64,000 bases of DNA from the NCBI GenBank assembly GCA_034440575.1, contig JAOTOL010001641.1, forward strand, positions 1,913,501 through 1,977,500, in the 5' to 3' direction. Position numbers and translations under genes: made by a program. Within the stretch, counting starts at the first letter, position 1. Each line of letters begins with the position of its first letter. The DNA is from Imbricaverruca yamaguchii (lineage: Eukaryota > Arthropoda > Thecostraca > Neoverrucidae). The notes below the pieces were generated by a model. The model was not told the origin of the DNA, did no database searches, and saw only the letters and a list, made by a program, of their open reading frames with translations. This document shows positions 1-51,231 of the stretch, piece by piece.

Positions 1-3000
1 GATCCTGCAGTCTTATCGGGTGCCGACTACCAGCACAGCAATGTAGCACCGGCCTCTCTGACTCAGATATGGTTCCTCTTCCTGGGGTATGGCTTCTTTG
101 TCTAAGATATGGTTCGTTTGCCTCATATAATGTTTATTTGCCTGAGATTTGGTTTCTCTGTCGGAAATGTGATTCCTCTGCTTGAGATATGGTTCCTCTG
201 GCGGGGTTGCGTAGTGACACGTGCTTCTTGGTCAGTTTGGGAAAGTCAGTTAGTTCGCGGACGCATGAGCTACCTGACCTAACCTAACCTAATCAGTCTG
301 GTAAAGTGATGCAATTTGCCGGCGCATGAAACACAAAGATGAGTGGACAGGATGCAATGTGGGAGGGAATGATGGTTTGGGTTCAGCTCGGTTCACGATG
401 ACAGTTATTGGAATGCCGTGGACTAGTGTTAACAATTTACAACAGCCAGATGCTCTAATCTGCTTTGTGAAAAGCCGCAGGGGTGCTATGGCTGGATGAT
501 TTCTGGATGCTTCTTCATCAAATTTCGCAGTATAAATTTGATGCATGCCTTCAAACAAGGAGGCGGAGCCCCGTCTAACAATATTTGGTTCAGGATCCGC
601 TACAATTGACAGCAATGAAGATTATTCCGAATCTTTCGAGCTCACCCTCACCCCCTCCACACCCCACCCCAGTAATATATAGGCAATACAAAGTCGACGT
701 GGCGTTTGTGGCGCAGGTGACTCGCACATGTAGCTGTTTATTTATGTTGCTTTTTATTCACACCTTGATCACAATGTTTCGTCTAATGTATTGCCTGCTC
801 AAAGGTAGTTGCCCAGCAACTAAATATTCCAGATTATTTTGTAGTCGATAAGAATCGAGCAGCGACTATTCACTCGAAGCGAATTTCACATTACAGTTTG
901 CACTTTTTTCACGTGTATTAAGCACGAGAGCTTAGTTCAAATCAACAATTGCTTTGATGTCCATAAATATTTAGGGTCCACGACTACTTGGAAAAAGATC
1001 AAGTGGAACAGTACTGTCAACTAGGTCAACTTTTTGAGCATTTTTAGCCCCTTTTCATCCATATAAACTTCACTGACGTTTTACTGGCTTGTAATGTCAT
1101 TTCAAGCCGTTTTGGGGGGGGATGGGGTGAGAAGAATGATCAAATTTTGGAAACTGTCTTGAAAGAAGCGAAAACGTAATTTATTGATTAACTATTTATT
1201 GCGCACCCTGAGCAGCACGTGGATAGTCTGATCACGTGGGGGTGGAATGGGGGAGGGGTCGCGATCTAATTGGCTAGATGATGCCTTGGTCATCATATGC
1301 TATGCCATAATAAGGGCGTGTGACATTCTTGGGTTGCTTTAATCCACTGGTGCAATACAAACTCGCGTGTCCAATAAAACCTTGCTGTTTAACCATGAAG
1401 AAGAAATTGTGTAAGAGATGCATGTTTTTGTTTTTGCCAACCCAACTCCACTTTAATATAAATGAAGTCAGGATGGTTGTTTGGGTGGCTTTATGCTCCA
1501 GGGTCCTATGCTCCGTAGTTTAGTTTGTCGCATGATCCTGGCCGCACCATCCAATCCGGGAACTCCAGTTCAACGGCAAAGTTTTCAGCTGGAGTTGTAC
1601 GGTGCCGTTAATGCAGGTTAAAACACGGCCGCTCAGTCGTCGCGTCCCCATCCTTACCAGGCCATATGCCATCTAATACTCGCAGCCGAAGGCTATGACG
1701 GCGTGTGAAGTGGCCAGGACCTCGTATTGCCAGGACAGTGGAGGCAATTGCAGGCCGGCGTTCTAACTAACTGGGCTAGCGGATCGGCTTCAATTTTGAA
1801 CCCCGGCAAAAAAATATGCGACGGGAGATGCTTTTATTTCACAAATCAGTAGCCGGCAAATATGCGGCGTTCCTTCTCAGTGAATGTGGTTTTTGTTTGT
1901 ATTTCAGTGATGTCCGCACCAGTGAAATAAAAACGTCGTATTTGTGGTGTCTGTATGACTTATAGGCAGGGGCGGATCTAGGATTTTCTTAAGGGGATCA
2001 GCCGAAAATGTGTGTAAAGAAAAAGAACATTCTCGCGCCCCATTCAGCGCGCGAAGCCCGCCGAATCATCATCGTCATGCCGTTTAGGGTAATCAGACTT
2101 ACGAATTTATTCAGCATCTTCTCAGGTTTTGTGTGGTACTAATCTCAAAATGTATCGTTTGATCTAGTATATTTTTGTTGCTAAGGGTGGGGAATTCGTT
2201 ATGCTTCTGCTTATAGCGATATTTTCATTGTTTTTGCGACATGTCTCCACCACCACATACTTCTATGTGAGCTGGAGTTGAATGCCTTGAACGCTCTCAC
2301 CGTTAGCACGCATTCGGTCAGTTCCAAGATTGACGAGCCAAATGGTATGGTATGCAGTTTCCGTAGCGACATTGCATTGCATTTCGACAGTCGGGCGCGA
2401 TAGACCGAGCATTGGGTGAAACCGCGCTAATTATTGGGCCGTCGTTGCAGGATGTCCACTTCCCTAGGCCATTTATGTTGTGTAATCGAGTGGGTTTGGC
2501 ATATATACCTGCCAGTACTGTGGCAGGCCGCAGCGGATGTACGGACACGATTCCAGAGCTATTTCGCCGTTAACTGATGCCGCTGTGCTGGGCTGTGTTG
2601 TCCTAATTCTCACCCTTGCCCGGAGCGACATGTGGATGCTTTTCACAGACATATGCGACCAATTTCCACCCCTTGGGAACGCTGCAAACGGAGATGTTCA
2701 GTGTGCAGGCCGGCAGCCTGCAAACTCTTAGACGCAGCCCAGGTTAGGATCGTGAGACTGTTTCAGTTGGGTTAAGTGTTTCTCGATAACAGCTGAAAAC
2801 TTCTAGAAAACAAACAAGAAGTAATCACCAACCACAATGCTTCTAAATTATTCCTCATGACAAAATGTGTCAAATTCCACGACATATATTATTACAACCT
2901 CCCAACGCGCAAGCATCGTAATTGGTTTCATGTGTAGTTAGTTGGCATAACAGTGTTCTAGTCGTATTGCGACTTGCTGGAACGGACAACGGCTAGGAAA

Positions 3001-23123: not shown

Positions 23124-23548
<425 letters not shown>

Positions 23549-26699: not shown

Positions 26700-26930
26700 T
26701 ACGGCGCAGCGTTCATGGCGTGACGACTGCCTCGCCACGCTGGCCTCAGCTGCCGTGACTGGGTCAGGTGCAGCGCCCTGGGGCGTGGAGCTGATCGATA
26801 GCTGGGCGCGTGGTTTTGGTGGTGGGGTGGGAGGGGGATGGAGGTGTGGCAGGCGGCAGGTCAACCCTGCTCCGGTTTGTGCCGCGTGCACCAAGTGTCT
26901 GCACCGTCTGCTGTGACTATCGACCGCCGG

Positions 26931-28078
26931 TCACCTGCAACACCGTCAGCACAGTCACCACCATAGGGCACTCCGTCCACACTCCGGTCACCTGCAGCAC
27001 CGTCAGCACTGTCACCACCATAGGGCACTCCGTCCACACTCCGGTCACCTGCAGCACCGTCAGCACTGTCACCACCATAGGGCACTCCGTCCACACTCCG
27101 GTCACCTGCAGCACCGTCAGCACTGTCACCACCATAGGGCACTCCGTCCACACTCCGGTCACCTGCAGCACCGTCAGCACCGTCATCACCATAGGGCACT
27201 CCGTCCACACTCCGGTCACCGCAGCACCGCAGTCCACCATAGGGCACCCGTCCACACTCCGGTCACTGCAGCACCTCAGCATGTCATCACCATAGGGCAC
27301 TCCGTCCACACTCCGGTCACCTGCAACACCGTCAGCACTGTCACCACCATAGGGCACTCCGTCCACACTCCGGTCACCTGCAGCACCGTCAGCACTGTCA
27401 CCACCATAGGGCACTCCGTCCACACTCCGGTCACCTGCAGCACCGTCAGCACTGTCACCACCATAGGGCACTCCGTCCACACTCCGGTCACCTGCAGCAC
27501 CGTCAGCACTGTCACCACCATAGGGCACTCCGTCCACACTCCGGTCACCTGCAGCACCGTCAGCACTGTCACCACCATAGGGCACTCCATCCACACTCCG
27601 GTCACCTGCAGCACCGTCAGCACTGTCACCACCATAGGGCACTCCGTCCACACTCCGGTCACCTGCAGCACCGTCAGCACTGTCACCACCATAGGGCACT
27701 CCGTCCACACTCCGGTCACCTGCAGCACCGTCAGCACTGTCACCACCATAGGGCACTCCGTCCACCCCGGTACCTGCAGCACCTCAGCTACACCATAGGG
27801 CACTCCGTCCACACTCCGGTCACCTGCAGCACCGTCAGACTGTCACCACCATAGGGCACTCCGTCCACACTCCGGTCACCTGCAGCACCGTCAGCGCTGT
27901 CACCACCATAGGGCACTCCGTCCACACTCCGGTCACCTGCAGCACCGTCAGCACAGTCACCACCATAGGGCACTCCGTCCACACTCCGGTCACCTGCAGC
28001 ACCGTCAGCACTGTCACCACCATAGGGCACTCCGTCCACACTCCGGTCACATGCAGCACCGTCAGCACCGTCACTCTG
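26931..28078. repeat. 57-bp minisatellite, about 20 units
   Basis: Unit CACTCCGGTCACCTGCAGCA + CCGTCAGCACTGTCACCACC + ATAGGGCACTCCGTCCA. Most units are identical; shortened, indel-bearing units at 27215-27290 and 27755-27840 divide the array into blocks. It lies in the intron before C2B exon 2. The 57-bp length keeps several frames open on both strands; no gene is called. Confidence 0.95.
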
Positions 28079-36719: not shown

Positions 36720-37340
36720 TTCCGAAATACAAGGCTGTTGAGGTGCGATACACGTGATGGGATGATAATGGTAGTCACCTGGTCTTGAATGTTGTGCTGC
36801 ACAAGTGTTCTGACTCGTCAGGTCCAGGGTTAAACATAATGTCCGAAATGTCTCCAAATTGTGGCAATAGATGATTTATGAGTTATACCTTACCATGAAG
36901 TACAAGGAGAGAGAAACATCCGCAATATAGCAATCACATTCCGATTGCTGAGAAACCATTCCCGCAACCATTTATTGCTTCACGAAAATAAAAATCTGCA
37001 AAAGTAGTGAAATATTAGGAAGGGCGCACAAGTTATTAGTGGTGTTTTGGCATGGTATTAGCGTAAACTTTTTACTTTCATGCCTTTGATTGGTATATTT
37101 TGGTATTTTATCCTTTTCGTCTTTTTATGGTTACATCTCAGACTTCACCTTCCATTAATCCCATTGGCGTCATACGAATGAACAAAACAAAACATAAATA
37201 TATTCGTCCTCCCCAGGAGCATTTCATTGTCTGGTTCACAACCTATACTATCTATATAATTTAGAACTGTTAAGGTGGACGACCTGCCGATCGTGTCAAC
37301 CGGTCACCTGGGGTCTGACCATGTGTCAGTCGGTCGGTCA

Positions 37341-41424: not shown

Positions 41425-43235
41425 GGTGTGGTCGGGCAGGGTCCTGCCACCGCTCACCCACGGTACCAGACTCCTGTCCGACCACACCAAAACGGCCGAC
41501 AACGGTACCAGACTCCTGTCCGACCACACCATAACGGCCGACAACGGTACCAGACTCCTGCCCGACCACACCATAACGGCGGACCATGGCAGTAGACTCC
41601 TGCCCAACCACACCATAACGGCGGACCATGTCACCAGACTCCTGCCCGACCACACCATAATGGCGGACCATGGCAGCAGACTCCTGCCCGACCACACCAT
41701 AATGGCGGACCATGGCAGCAGACTCCTGCCCGACCACACCATAACGGCGAACCACGGAAGCAGACTCCTGCCCGACCACACCATAACGGCGGACCACGAC
41801 AGCAGACTCCTGCCCGACCACACCATAACGGCGGATCGGCAGCAGACGCCCGGCCAACAAGGAGATTTCCTGGTCGGGCAGGAGTCTGCTGCCGTTTTCC
41901 TCAGACCACGGCAGCAGACTCCTGCCCGACCACACCATAATGGCGGACCATGGCAGCAGACTCCTGCCCAACCACACCATAACGGCGGACCACGGTACCA
42001 GACTCCTGCCCGACCACACCATAACGGCGGACCATGGCAGCATACTCCTGCCCGACCACACCATAATGGCGGACCATGGCAGCAGACTCCTGCCCAACCA
42101 CACCATAACGGCGGACCACGGTACCAGACTCCTGCCCGACCACACCATAACGGCGGACCACGGTACCAGACTCCTGCCCGACCACACCATAACGGCGGGC
42201 CATGGCAGCAGACTCCTGCCCAACCACACCATAACGGCGGACCATGTCAGCAGACTCCTGCCCGACCACACCATAATGGCGGACCATGGCAGCAGACTCC
42301 TGCCCAACCACACCATAACGGCGGACCACGGTACCAGACTCCTGCCCGACCACACCATAACGGAGGACCACGGTACCAGACTCCTGCCCGACAACACCAT
42401 AACGGCGGGCCATGGCAGCAGACTCCTGCCCAACCACACCATAACGGCGGACCATGTCAGCAGACTCCCTGCCCGACCACACCATAATGGCGGACCACGG
42501 TAGCAGACTCCTGCCCGACCACACCATAACGGCGGGCCATGGCAGCAGACTCCTGCCCAACCACACCATAACGGCGGACCACGGTACCAGACTCCTGCCC
42601 GACCACACCATAATGGCGGACCATGTCAGCAGACTCCTGCCCGACCACACCATAATGGCGGACCATGTCAGCAGACTCCTGCCCGACCACACCATAACGG
42701 AGGGCCATGGCAGCAGACTCCTGCCCAACCACACCATAACGGCGGACCATGTCAGCAGACTCCTGCCCGACCACACCATAACGGCGGACCATGGCAGCAG
42801 ACTCCTGCCCAACCACATCATAACGGGGGACCATGGCAGCAGACTCCTGCCCGACCACACCATAATGGCGGACCATGGCAGCAGACTCCTGCCCGACCAC
42901 ACCATAACGGCGGACCATGGCAGCAGACTCCTGCCCAACCACATCATAACGGCGGACCATGGCAGCAGACTCCTGCCCGACCACACCATAATGGCGGACC
43001 ATGGCAGCAGACTCCTGCCCAACCACTCCATAACGGCGGACCACGGTACCAGACTCCTGCCCAACCACATCATAACGGCGGACCATGGCAGCAGACTCCT
43101 GCCCGACCACACCATAATGGCGGACCATGGCAGCAGACTCCTGCCCAACCACTCCATAACGGCGGACCACGGTACCAGACTCCTGCCCGACCACACCATA
43201 ACGGCGAACCATGTCAGCAGACTCCTGCCCGACCG
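41425..43235. repeat. 42-bp minisatellite, about 42 units, with two inverted units
   Basis: Unit CAGACTCCTGCCCGACCACA + CCATAACGGCGGACCATGGC + AG. Variation is limited to a few alternating sites (CCCGACC/CCCAACC, TAACGG/TAATGG, ATGGCAG/ACGGTAC/ATGTCAG). Two units are reversed: GTGGTGTGGTCGGGCAGG at about 41427 and GGTCGGGCAGGAGTCTGCTG at about 41872, each making a foldback with its neighbours. Long frames in four or more frames on both strands (up to 449 codons) follow from the stop-free 42-bp unit. Confidence 0.95.
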
Positions 43236-44591: not shown

Positions 44592-45470
44592 TAGCTCCGC
44601 CGCCTGTCCGCCGTCGTCTGACCGCCGCCGCCTGACCGTCGCCGTCTGACCGTCGCCGCCTGACCGCCGCCGTCTGACCGTCGCCGTCTGACCGTCGCCG
44701 TCTGACCGTCGCCGTCTGACCGTCGCCGCCTGTCCACCGCCGTCTGACCGTCGCCGTCTGACCGTCGCCGTCTGACCGTCGCCGCCTGTCCACCGCCGTC
44801 TGACCGTCGCCGTCTGACCGTCGCCGTCTGACCGTCGCCGCCTGTCCGCCGCTGTCTGACCGTCGCCGTCTGACCGTCGCCGCCTGTCCGCCGCCGTCTG
44901 ACCGTCGCCGTCTGACCGCCGCCGTCTGACCGTCGCCGCCTGTCCGCCGCCGCCTGACCGTCGCCGTCTGACCGTCGCCGTCTGACCGTCGCCGCCTGTC
45001 CACCGCCGTCTGACCGTCGCCGTCTGACCGTCGCCGTCTGACCGTCGCCGTCTGACCGTCGCCGTCTGACCGTCGCCGTCTGACCGTCGCCGCCTGTCCA
45101 CCGCCGTCTGACCGTCGCCGTCTGACCGTCGCCGTCTGACCGTCGCCGTCTGACCGTCGCCGGCTGTCCACCGCCGTCTGACCGTCGCCGTCTGACCGTC
45201 GCCGTCTGACCGTCGCCGTCTGACCGTCGCCGCCTGTCCGCCGCCGTCTGACCGTCGCCGTCTGACCGTCGCCGCCTGACCGCCGCCGTCTGACCGCCGC
45301 CGCCTGACCGTCGCCGCCTGACCGCCGCCGTCTGACCGTCGCCGTCTGACCGTCGCCGTCTGACCGTCGCCGTCTGACCGTCGCCGCCTGACCGCCGCCG
45401 TCTGACCGTCGCCGTCTGACCGTCGCCGTCTGACCGTCGCCGCCTGACCGCCGCCGTCTGACCGCCGTAC
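44592..45470. repeat. 14-bp minisatellite, about 62 units
   Basis: Unit CCGTCGCCGTCTGA with CCGCCGCCTGTCCA-type variants. Because 14 is not a multiple of three, each frame steps through all three phases and every minus-strand frame reads the same Arg/Asp/Gly/Gln-rich peptide. No gene is called. Confidence 0.95.
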
Positions 45471-47793: not shown

Positions 47794-47940
47794 TCACAGC
47801 TCGTCGTGCAGGGCCATGCACAGCGGCCGGAGCCGGTGCGGCCCGGCGTTCTGTAGCACGCCATGGGGACTGCACACCCACGGGTCGTCGGTGAGCCACT
47901 GCCACTGCTGCAGCTCACTGCGCAGCTGCGACAACAATTC
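47794..47940 (-). CDS. SGSH: SGSH (heparan N-sulfatase) last exon
   Basis: 49 codons including stop: ELLSQLRSELQQWQWLTDDP then WVCSPHGVLQ and a tail ending PLCMALHDEL. Human sulfamidase ends with the same layout (WQWETHDPWVCAPDGVL...PLHNEL). SGSH is a lysosomal enzyme that removes N-sulfate groups from heparan sulfate. Starts after a CTGTCTGCAG acceptor in phase 0, matching the previous exon. Only the nearest of seven identical acceptors keeps the frame to this end. The two exons give the C-terminal 97 residues; catalytic residues, including the formylglycine cysteine, are on exons further right and were not found before 64000. Confidence 0.9.
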   Translation of the reverse strand, partial: ELLSQLRSELQQWQWLTDDPWVCSPHGVLQNAGPHRLRPLCMALHDEL

Positions 47941-48385
47941 CTGCAGACAGCACACAGCACCGTCAGCCACTGCCACTGCTGCAGCCCACTGCGCAGCTGC
48001 GACAACAATTCCTGCAGACAGCACACAGCACCGTCAGCCACTGCCACTGCTGCAGCTCACTGCGCAGCTGCGACAACAATTCCTGCAGACAGCACACAGC
48101 ACCGTCAGCCACTGCCACTGCTGCAGCTCACTGCGCAGCTGCGACAACAATTCCTGCAGACAGCACACAGCACCGTCAGCCACTGCCACTGCTGCAGCCC
48201 ACTGCGTAGCTGTGACAACAATTCCTGCAGGCAGCACACAGCACAGTCAGCCACTGCCACTGCTGCAGCCCACTGCGTAGCTGTGACAACAATTCCTGCA
48301 GGCAGCACACAGCACAGTCAGCCACTGCCACTGCTGCAGCTTATTGCGCAGCCGTGACAACAATTCCTGCAGGCAGCACACAGCA
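47886..48385 (-). repeat. 71-bp minisatellite repeating the 3' splice site and exon start
   Basis: Seven copies; the one nearest the coding end is the real exon start. On the minus strand each unit has CTGTGTGCTGTCTGCAG then GAATTGTTGTCGCAGCTGCG and the codons for SELQQWQWLT. CAATTC (plus strand) starts at 47935, 48006, 48077, 48148, 48219, 48290 and 48361, an exact 71-bp step. Confidence 0.95.
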
Positions 48386-50745
48386 TCGTCAGCCACCGTG
48401 ATACCACTGTACCGCAGACAACAGCAGATGGGACACAGCACCGTCAGCCGCCGTGACACCACTGTACCGCAGACAACAGCAGATGGTACACAGCACCGTC
48501 AGCCGCCGTGACACCACTGTACCGCAGACAACAGCAGATGGTACACAGCACCGTCAGCCGCAGTGACACCACTGTACCGCAGACAACAGCAGATGGCACA
48601 CAGCACCGTCAGCCGCCGTGACACCGCTGTACCGCAGACAACAGCAGACGGCACACAGCACCGTCAGCCGCCGTGACACCACTGTACCGCAGACAACAGC
48701 AGACGGCACACAGCACCGTCAGCCGCCGTGACACCACTGCACCGCAGACAACAGCAGATAGTACATAGCACCGTCAGCCGCCGTGACACCACTGTACCGC
48801 AGACAACAGCAGATGGTACATAGCACCGTCAGCCGCCGTGACACCACTGTACCGCAGACAACAGCAGACGGCACACAGCACCGTCAGCCGCCGTGACACC
48901 ACTGTACCGCAGACAACAGCAGACGGCACACAGCACCGTCAGCCGCCGTGAGACCACTGCATCGCAGACAACATCAGATGGTACACAGCACCGTCAGCCG
49001 CCGTGAGACCACTGCACCGCAGACAACAGCAGATGGTACATAGCACCGTCAGCCGCCGTGACACCACTGTACCGCAGACAACAGCAGATGGTACATAGCA
49101 CCGTCAGCCGCCGTGACACCACTGTACCGCAGACAACAGCAGACGGCACACAGCACCGTCAGCCGCCGTGACACCACTGTACCGCAGACAACAGCAGATG
49201 GCACACAGCACCGTCAGCCGCCGTGACACCGCTGTACCGCAGACAACAGCAGATGGTACACAGCACCGTCAGCCGCCGTGACACCACTGTACCGCAGACG
49301 ACAGCAGATGGTACACAGCACCGTCAGCCGCCGTGACACCACTGTACCGCAGACAACAGCAGATGGTACACAGCACCGTCAGCCGCCGTGACACCACTGT
49401 ACCGCAGACAACAGCAGATGGTACACAGCACCGTCAGCCGCCGTGACACCACTGTACCGCAGACAACAGCAGACGGCACACAGCACCGTCAGCCGCCGTG
49501 ACACCACTGTACCGCAGACAACAGCAGATGGTACATAGCACCGTCAGCCGCCGTGACACCACTGTACCGCAGACAACAGCAGATGGTACACAGCACCGTC
49601 AGCCGCCGTGACACCACTGTACCGCAGACAACAGCAGATGGTACACATCACTGTCAGCCGCCGTGACACCACTGTACCGCAGACGACAGCAGACGGCAGA
49701 CAGCACCGTCAGCCGCCGTGACACCACTGTACCGCAGACGACAGCAGATGGTACACATCACTGTCAGCCGCCGTGACACCACTGTACCGCAGACAACAGC
49801 AGACGGCACACAGCACCGTCAGCCGCCGTGACACCACTGTACCGCAGACAACAGCAGACGGCACACAGCACCGTCAGCCGCCGTGAGACCACTGCATCGC
49901 AGACAACATCAGATGGTACACAGCACCGTCAGCCGCCGTGAGACCACTGCACCGCAGACAACAGCAGATGGTACATAGCACCGTCAGCCGCCGTGACACC
50001 ACTGTACCGCAGACAACAGCAGATGGTACATAGCACCGTCAGCCGCCGTGACACCACTGTACCGCAGACAACAGCAGATGGTACATAGCACCGTCAGCCG
50101 CCGTGACACCACTGTACCGCAGACAACAGCAGACGGCACACAGCACCGTCAGCCGCCGTGAGACCACTGCATCGCAGACAACAGCAGACGGCACACAGCA
50201 CCGTCAGCCGCCGTGACACCACTGTACCGCAGACAACAGCAGACGGCACACAGCACCGTCAGCCGCCGTGACACCACTGTACCGCAGACAACAGCAGACG
50301 GCACACAGCACCGTCAGCCGCCGTGAGACCACTGCATCGCAGACAACATCAGATGGTACACAGCACCGTCAGCCGCCGTGAGACCACTGCACCGCAGACA
50401 ACAGCAGATGGTACATAGCACCGTCAGCCGCCGTGACACCACTGTACCGCAGACAACAGCAGATGGTACATAGCACCGTCAGCCGCCGTGACACCACTGT
50501 ACCGCAGACAACAGCAGATGGTACATAGCACCGTCAGCCGCCGTGACACCACTGTACCGCAGACAACAGCAGACGGCACACAGCACCGTCAGCTGCCGTG
50601 AGACCACTGCATCGCAGACAACAGCAGACGGCACACAGCACCGTCAGCCGCCGTGAGACCACTGCATCGCAGACAACATCAGATGGTACACAGCACCGTC
50701 AGCCGCCGTGAGACCACTACATCGCAGACAACAGCAGAGGCTCTC
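48386..50745. repeat. 55-bp minisatellite, about 42 units
   Basis: Unit CCGCCGTGACACCACTGTAC + CGCAGACAACAGCAGATGGT + ACACAGCACCGTCAG. It shares GCAGACA...ACACAGCACCGTCAGCC with the 71-bp unit and directly continues that array, so it is probably a derivative. An 8-unit block of 440 bp (49801-50240) recurs almost unchanged at 50241-50680. In the minus orientation the acceptor-like core is CTGTTGTCTGCGG: the AG of the 71-bp unit is GG. Confidence 0.95.
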
Positions 50746-51084
50746 AGCGCTGTCAACCACCGCCAGTCAATATCGTATACTGACAAATGTACAATGACAC
50801 TTGCAGACAGCATATATAATAGTCATAACATACTCAGCTACCGTCGGCCTTCATTGGCCACCGTAAGCCACTGTAATATCACCATCAGCGTCCGTCGTCC
50901 ATCAGCATCACCGTATGTCGTCCACAGTCGCGCGCCTGCCAACATCACGCAATCGGAGCTGGGCAAAACAAAAGCAGCACCGGGGCGCTCTAGCCTGGAT
51001 ATGATCTGGACCAGGAAGTATGGTGAGCACATGATACAGTTACGCCTTAAGTTGTGACCGGTAACACACCTGACGGCAACTGAC

Positions 51085-51231
51085 CCGATATGAAGGCTTG
51101 AACGCCAGGTTTTTCCGCTCGTGCGGGTCGTGCTTCAGGTCGTACAACTCCCACTCAGGCCTGTGATAGTAAGTGTGTAGAGTTTTGTACCACGGCAGCG
51201 GCTCTCCAGACACAGTGCGGTTCAGCAGGTC
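51085..51231 (-). CDS. SGSH: SGSH (heparan N-sulfatase) penultimate exon
   Basis: 49 codons, phase 0 at both ends: DLLNRTVSGEPLPWYKTLHT, YYHRPEWELYDLKHDPHERK and NLAFKPSYR. DLLNRT...WYK...YY.R..WELYD...DPHE..NLA is diagnostic of N-sulfoglucosamine sulfohydrolase. The acceptor is GTGGCGGCAG and the donor is CGG/GTCAGT. Joined to the last exon it reads PSYR-ELLSQLR, aligned with PRFA-QLLEMLR in the human protein as I recall it. The intron between them (47941-51084, 3.1 kb) is almost wholly minisatellite. Confidence 0.92.

Follow-up and report, generated by a model that had tools for sequence, protein, structure and literature searches.

A length-polymorphic minisatellite across the last 3' splice site of SGSH in the barnacle Imbricaverruca yamaguchii

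Minisatellites that run across an exon boundary are known so far mostly from amphioxus, where they have been named 'mirages'. Adh was the first case, in a 2002 paper cited in PMC3087553, and the genes that carry mirages include Adh3, the globins BflGb6 and BflGb9, TnC and PGBD5 (PMC3087553; PMC3902484). An acceptor-side mirage in a globin gene comes in two haplotypes, one with 6 units and the other with 3, and splicing across it was found to be regular by reverse transcription PCR (PMC3087553). The same regularity holds for Adh and TnC (PMC3902484), and somatic instability has been reported for the Adh3 mirage. In human ABCA7, a 25-bp variable number tandem repeat (VNTR) contains the donor of exon 18 (intron 18), and its longer alleles raise exon 19 skipping (PMC5954066). 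Here we describe a 71-bp minisatellite at the last exon of SGSH, the gene of the lysosomal enzyme N-sulphoglucosamine sulphohydrolase, in a 64,000-nucleotide stretch of the genome of Imbricaverruca yamaguchii (contig JAOTOL010001641.1; below, the window is this whole stretch). The array is likely an acceptor-type mirage, which would bring a known kind of element into a new animal group, the crustaceans.

The 3' part of SGSH, that is, its last two exons, lies on the minus strand of the window (Table 1). Every one of the seven units in the array spans the intron end (24 bp) and the exon start (47 bp), as mirage units do, and like them carries AG or GT splice signals. The seven acceptors read TGCAG/GAATTG, with the slash marking the junction, and all six spacings between them are exactly 71 bp. 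A preliminary description of this DNA had stated that the acceptor of the last exon is repeated six more times upstream in exact 71-bp steps, and these sites, together with a Tandem Repeats Finder (TRF) result free of indels, agree with it. It had also ascribed one splice motif and one set of codons to all copies. GAATTG is indeed found in all seven, but copies 5-7 (3/7) read CTGCCTGCAG, and the peptide of the unit varies, with RSG in copies 2, 5 and 6 and SRLRNK in copy 7. Nor does the array fill the last intron, as was thought: it covers the last 456 of 3,144 bp and runs 47 bp into the last exon, while most of the intron is a different array of 55-bp units.

All seven acceptors are preceded by CTGAC with its A 23 nt upstream of the exon, followed by CTGYCTGCAG/GAATTG. 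From its consensus we take CTGAC to be a branch-point-like motif. Units were located by the string TGCAGGAATTG, and there is no 71-bp step without that string. Four unit types (a-d) can be told apart. Over the 19 units of the window and of a second contig, C128, 9 of 71 columns are variable, 3 of them in the intron part and 6 in the exon part, and CAG/GAATTG is present in 7/7 and 12/12 units respectively. The units have one more property. GTGAGC or GTGGGC occurs in 17 of the 19 (in copy 4 at 48126-48131, minus strand), and in units followed by another one, 49 nt separate this GT from the next AG, whereby the repeat mimics a complete short intron.

The acceptors are not equivalent in what they encode. 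Exon 10 joined to copy 1 continues as ELLSQLRSELQQWQWLTDDPWVC...LHDEL, 48 amino acids that constitute the conserved C-terminus of SGSH, and no other copy gives it. Joined to copy 2 it acquires a frameshifted tail of 79 amino acids, and joined to any of copies 3-7 it acquires 39 amino acids that end in SSGSG before TGA. The reading frames of all three had been foreseen in the preliminary description, and at the level of sequence they hold. Within the window, the 55-bp units have 42 AGs, every one of which leads to a tail of 0 or 5 residues. The frames of the 71-bp units are the same in C128, where copies 3-12 give 39 residues, whereas two of its 55-bp units give 24 and 37. We aligned six SGSH proteins, namely this one, two barnacle-like ones and three more distant ones. 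The part encoded beyond the repeated stretch holds residues T, D, P, W, C, P, V, L and G that are invariant among them. Since the C-terminus behind copy 1 alone is conserved in the five other proteins, a working gene has to make the copy-1 product.

There is little doubt that the gene is SGSH, as had been proposed. The penultimate exon is 59% identical to human SGSH over amino acids 409-457 (tblastn), and it matches PDB entry 4mhx with an E-value of 2.4e-14. The human query matched both last exons. Eight further exons follow in order upstream on the same contig (C1408), the most distant of them about 60 kb away from the penultimate exon; the exon search upstream on this contig did not locate the first exon. 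As placed, the exons have GT at 9/9 donors and AG at 9/10 acceptors, with the acceptor of exon 2 less sure. The intron position after exon 10 is suggested, by comparison of sequences, to be present also in open reading frames P0126 and P0127 of other sources. The conceptual protein has 476 amino acids. Among the best 120 of 1,186 matches, it is 80% identical to SGSH of Pollicipes pollicipes with 100% query cover, while the second match, a protein from a short contig, is at 76%, the next ones by score do not exceed about 62%, and SGSH of Branchiostoma is at 58%. Both full-length homology and the conserved C-terminus place it in the SGSH family. Myosin-XIX of the same genome is 72% identical to that of Amphibalanus amphitrite and 63% to that of Pollicipes pollicipes. 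By these values the closest relatives are barnacles, the DNA likely comes from a third barnacle species, distinct from both, and an amphioxus origin is rejected.

The length of the array is not constant. A search of the whole assembly (767 Mb, 1,430 contigs) with the exact unit pattern gave one other contig, C128, with 9 exact matches; the window has 4, because the pattern holds CTGTCTGCAG. The last SGSH intron of C128 is 2,453 bp long and contains 12 acceptor units and about 24 units of 55 bp. Written as unit types, the arrays are abbccdc in the window and abbcdcccdddc in C128. At the 5' end the first three units are the same in both contigs, as is the copy at the exon, whereas the interior units differ in number; exons 10 and 11 are identical. 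C128 (55,272 bp) is collinear with window 53722-5975, a span of 47.7 kb in which seven kept blocks add up to about 31 kb; five of the blocks exceed 4 kb and are 97.6-98.8% identical, non-coding DNA included. To judge from this, C128 is most likely the other haplotype. The array is a length-polymorphic minisatellite, and unit number differs (7 vs 12) as it does between haplotypes with mirages, C128 being assigned to the second haplotype by its collinearity. The copy number of seven in the preliminary description is thus right for the window, but it is not fixed. Two structural differences between the contigs can be recorded as well. Nothing in a 151-kb primary stretch matches C128 1-11252 over at least 300 bp at >94%, and this end of C128 could be a haplotype-specific insertion or a misjoin. 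C128 27097-31391, about 4.3 kb, lies between blocks that adjoin at window 36830-36837, which makes it a presence/absence difference.

We know of five further junctions with repeats of this sort in the same genome. One is the end of a C2-domain exon at 23293, 39-40 of whose 40 residues match Doc2, synaptotagmin and rabphilin with E-values down to 5.6e-11. Its donor is repeated as GTGAGT, GTTAGT or GTGAGG in 39-41-bp steps. This array is more diverged than that of SGSH and is stable in length, having 7 copies in both contigs with 3 differences in 670 bp. Another is the donor of SGSH exon 5 (about C1408:2007542, outside the window), where CAGTACAG/gtgacc and the following intron are repeated, with three copies visible. 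The remaining three come from a survey of myosin-domain loci (30 loci of 72 matches), in which L026, L044 and L050 have boundary-spanning repeats, all on the donor side by eye. Are exon edges then preferred sites for such duplications? Local direct repeats cover 17.3% of points in the window and 17.9% of points in myosin flanks. Repeats span 5/79 edges, namely 2/19 SGSH exon edges and 3/60 myosin match edges; the C2 array was left out of this count, since it had been found by looking at arrays. We therefore rejected, on present data, a duplication mechanism specific for splice sites: exon edges are not enriched, so none is needed. Junction repeats probably persist because the exon-side copy keeps the coding sequence.

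These observations can be put together as follows. On the intron side there is a tandem array of a 71-bp stretch that comprises the end of the intron and 47 nt of exon. The array would have grown through replication slippage or unequal exchange, as other minisatellites do, in a genome dense with repeats. The exon-proximal copy is still joined to the rest of the exon, hence the coding sequence is intact. All copies may be competent acceptors, and the sequence beyond +47, which is present after copy 1 alone, may favour the last one. The segment from -24 to +47 cannot select copy 1, and this makes the sequence beyond the repeated part the natural candidate. No other copy restores the true protein end, so splicing likely goes to the last one. 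If copies 2-7 were used at all, the resulting SGSH would carry a nonsense tail, with its stop codon in the last exon. With such a stop, mis-spliced products would probably not be subject to exon-junction-dependent decay. We are fairly confident of this interpretation as a whole, that is, a length-polymorphic minisatellite of a 3' splice site and exon start, likely tolerated, as the spliceosome would mostly settle on the last, exon-proximal copy. In other words, the array most likely represents a tolerated by-product of minisatellite growth that is spliced mainly to its last copy. Proximity to the poly(A) site was considered as a means of picking copy 1 and appears weak, as both contigs have 1,975 nt between the stop and the first AATAAA or ATTAAA.

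Several points weigh against this interpretation. Within -24 to +47 nothing sets copy 1 apart from copies 3 and 4, and if the first acceptor to appear were taken, the upstream copies would be at an advantage. No transcript of the species was found: the best full-length protein among the 120 best of 1,186 matches is 80% identical, and a search with the last two exons gave 9 matches, none above 85% identity. The edge survey is small and not random, the myosin edges are edges of hidden Markov model matches that stand in for junctions, and the overlap rule used for myosin (10 bases each side) is slightly stricter than the background count.

Could the array instead be a functional splice ladder, with several or all acceptors in use, and allele length setting the share of full-length versus C-terminally replaced SGSH? 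Each unit is a self-contained module with the A of CTGAC 23 nt before CAG/G, and from -24 to +47 there is no difference between copy 1 and copies 3 and 4. There is also a precedent on the donor side: at the human ABCA7 VNTR a transcript retaining one unit amounts to about 2%, and with longer alleles a second splice event was altered as well (PMC5954066). However, the alternative tails of SGSH are out of frame, the conserved C-terminus lies behind copy 1 alone, and the cDNA work in amphioxus found regular splicing at such loci. We consider a functional ladder improbable. The same evidence bears on the suggestion in the preliminary description that the enzyme end depends on choosing the last of nearly equal acceptors. 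It fits the sequence, copies 3 and 4 being what they are, but a difficult or regulated choice does not follow from it: the count is polymorphic (7 and 12), the exons are identical, and amphioxus splicing is regular. Nor is the arrangement unique, given the donor-type repeat in the same window and those in other genes of this genome. A bolder version can be imagined, in which the acceptor ladder is a heritable dial, longer alleles diverting more transcripts to decay-escaping tails of 39 or 79 residues, and in which barnacle ladders and their donor mirror images occupy several per cent of junctions. This too we think unlikely. If it were true, the tails would escape exon-junction-dependent decay owing to a stop codon located in the last exon, each extra 71-bp unit would be one more complete branch-point-acceptor module on the gene of a lysosomal enzyme, and all this would take place in barnacle genomes that the proposal describes as saturated with minisatellites.

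Another alternative is that C128 is a paralogous duplicate and the 7/12 difference not allelic. The stretch C128 1-11252, with its lack of matches, speaks for a duplicate. The 47.7-kb collinearity, the five blocks above 4 kb whose identity of 97.6-98.8% extends to non-coding DNA, and the presence of the exact pattern on just two contigs in the whole assembly speak against it, and we regard a paralogue as quite improbable. Still less credible is an assembly artefact, that is, an array or a repeat number made by the assembler. Assemblers commonly mis-size tandem repeats, and a globin mirage of amphioxus was itself mis-assembled in the draft genome (PMC3087553). But the array is present on two separate contigs that agree in its first three units (5' end), in its last unit and in the exons, and this makes an artefact unlikely, although the exact counts of 7 and 12 may be off. 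Finally, an intron-gain or recursive-splicing device, each repeat being cut as a 22-nt exon and a 49-nt intron, can be set aside as extremely improbable: GTGAGC or GTGGGC does occur in 17/19 units (types b, c and d, which have GT...CTGAC...CAG within 49 nt, with 49 nt to the next AG in the 15 that have a following unit), but in the real exon the donor-like site codes for protein, its GCA/GT departs from the donor consensus before GT, its use would insert 22-nt frameshifting pieces, and the AG/GT needed at the joint for recursive splicing is absent.

The 55-bp array next to the acceptor units deserves a comment. The 55-bp unit has 25/26 bases in common with the intron part of the 71-bp unit, and aligned as wholes the two units score 72, where the best of 2,000 shuffles scores 41. 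On this evidence we are certain that they have a common intron block. The gap in the alignment takes out AGGAAT. For the exon part the outcome depends on alignment settings: in local alignment 125/2,000 shuffles reach the observed score, while in global alignment with other gap costs 25/5,000 dinucleotide shuffles do so, and 92/5,000 for a second unit variant. It is suggestive, then, that the 55-bp units may be 71-bp units that lost the acceptor. If the first AG after each TGAC-type motif is taken, the intron in the window has 49 modules. The 55-bp array accounts for 42 of these and the 71-bp array for 7; in 2/42 modules of the former the AG comes only 3 nt after the A. GTGGCT stands on both sides, and we did not use it as evidence for microhomology at birth, since the left copy may be an older repeat unit. 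Other long minisatellites in the window are at 41458-43234 (42 bp x43), 26927-28074 (57 bp x21) and 44598-45464 (14 bp x62).

Table 1. Features of the SGSH 3' end, its arrays and other junction repeats (positions are those of the window, except for the myosin loci; a slash marks the splice junction)
Feature	Position	Strand	Remarks
SGSH penultimate exon (exon 10)	51085..51231	-	DLLNRT...KPSYR; 3' end phase 0; donor CGG/GTCAGT; junction read
Last SGSH intron	47941..51084	-	3,144 bp
True last SGSH exon (exon 11), including TGA	47794..47940	-	tblastn with human SGSH; exon placement; protein alignment
71-bp minisatellite, 7 units, 5'-abbccdc-3'	47894..48396	-	TRF: 7.1 copies, 96% matches, no indels, score 887
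Acceptor copy 7, first exon base	48366	-	39-aa tail
Acceptor copy 6, first exon base	48295	-	39-aa tail
Acceptor copy 5, first exon base	48224	-	39-aa tail
Acceptor copy 4, first exon base	48153	-	Equals copy 1 from -24 to +47; 39-aa tail
Acceptor copy 3, first exon base	48082	-	Equals copy 1 from -24 to +47; 39-aa tail
Acceptor copy 2, first exon base	48011	-	One base unlike copy 1; 79-aa frameshifted tail, stop ends 47772
Acceptor copy 1, first exon base	47940	-	Starts true last SGSH exon
CTGAC branch-like motif of copy 1	47962..47966	-	A 23 nt before exon; overlaps start of the unit's intron part
55-bp minisatellite, ~43 units (~24 in C128)	48378..50738	-	Without CAG/GAATTG
C2-domain exon end (...DPFVKV) and donor GTGAGT repeat	23265..23541	+	~41-bp period, 7 donor-like copies
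Myosin L026, donor repeat	1415-1521		32 bp, 3.3 copies
Myosin L044, donor repeat	1673-1820		Two copies
Myosin L050, donor repeat	735-1518		39 bp, 20.5 copies

What may such a locus be good for? It offers a natural test of how the spliceosome chooses when acceptors do not differ between -24 and +47, and arrays of 7 and of 12 units, which one animal likely carries together, would serve as internal controls. It also suggests that splice-junction minisatellites may be found wherever minisatellites are dense. There is a practical side too, as gene prediction across such junctions can put an exon edge on the wrong copy. Among the best matches listed in the open-licence literature, there was no report of splice-junction minisatellites in crustaceans. 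In the portions of barnacle genome papers covered by a search for the term 'tandem', it was absent, or tandem repeats appeared only as collapsed assembly regions.

How does the locus compare with other known arrangements of repeated splice signals? NAGNAG acceptors are two AGs three bases apart, and recursive (ratchet) splicing uses an AG/GT zero-length exon at the joint. In SGSH the acceptors are 71 bp apart and the joint is CAG/GAATTG. In the tandem genomic duplication model a new intron arises inside an exon. The SGSH array resembles that model in that the duplicated segment carries splice signals (PMC4974935, PMC2891723), and differs in that an old intron has had its end duplicated. Boundary minisatellites are also found among the internal tandem repeats of human segmental-duplication genes, where they are able to create alternative introns (PMC2812944); those were analysed through paralogue transcripts. 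For SGSH we claim no new intron. With the VNTR in intron 18 of human ABCA7 the array has in common that a length-polymorphic minisatellite includes the splice site of the flanking exon (PMC5954066). That VNTR is on the donor side, however, has a 25-bp unit and has measured effects on splicing and expression.

The amphioxus mirages are closest. There too many units carry AG or GT signals, and the boundary copies escape homogenisation (PMC3087553; PMC3902484); BflGb6 is likewise of the 3'-splice-site type with a unit number that differs between haplotypes (PMC3087553). The differences are that amphioxus are cephalochordates and this is a barnacle, that the exon concerned is the last one of SGSH, and that the unit is 71 bp as against 150-160 bp in BflGb6 and 10-72 bp in Adh3. 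Moreover, the SGSH array adjoins a second array of 55-bp units, and regular splicing, which has been seen in RNA at the amphioxus loci, is for SGSH a prediction.
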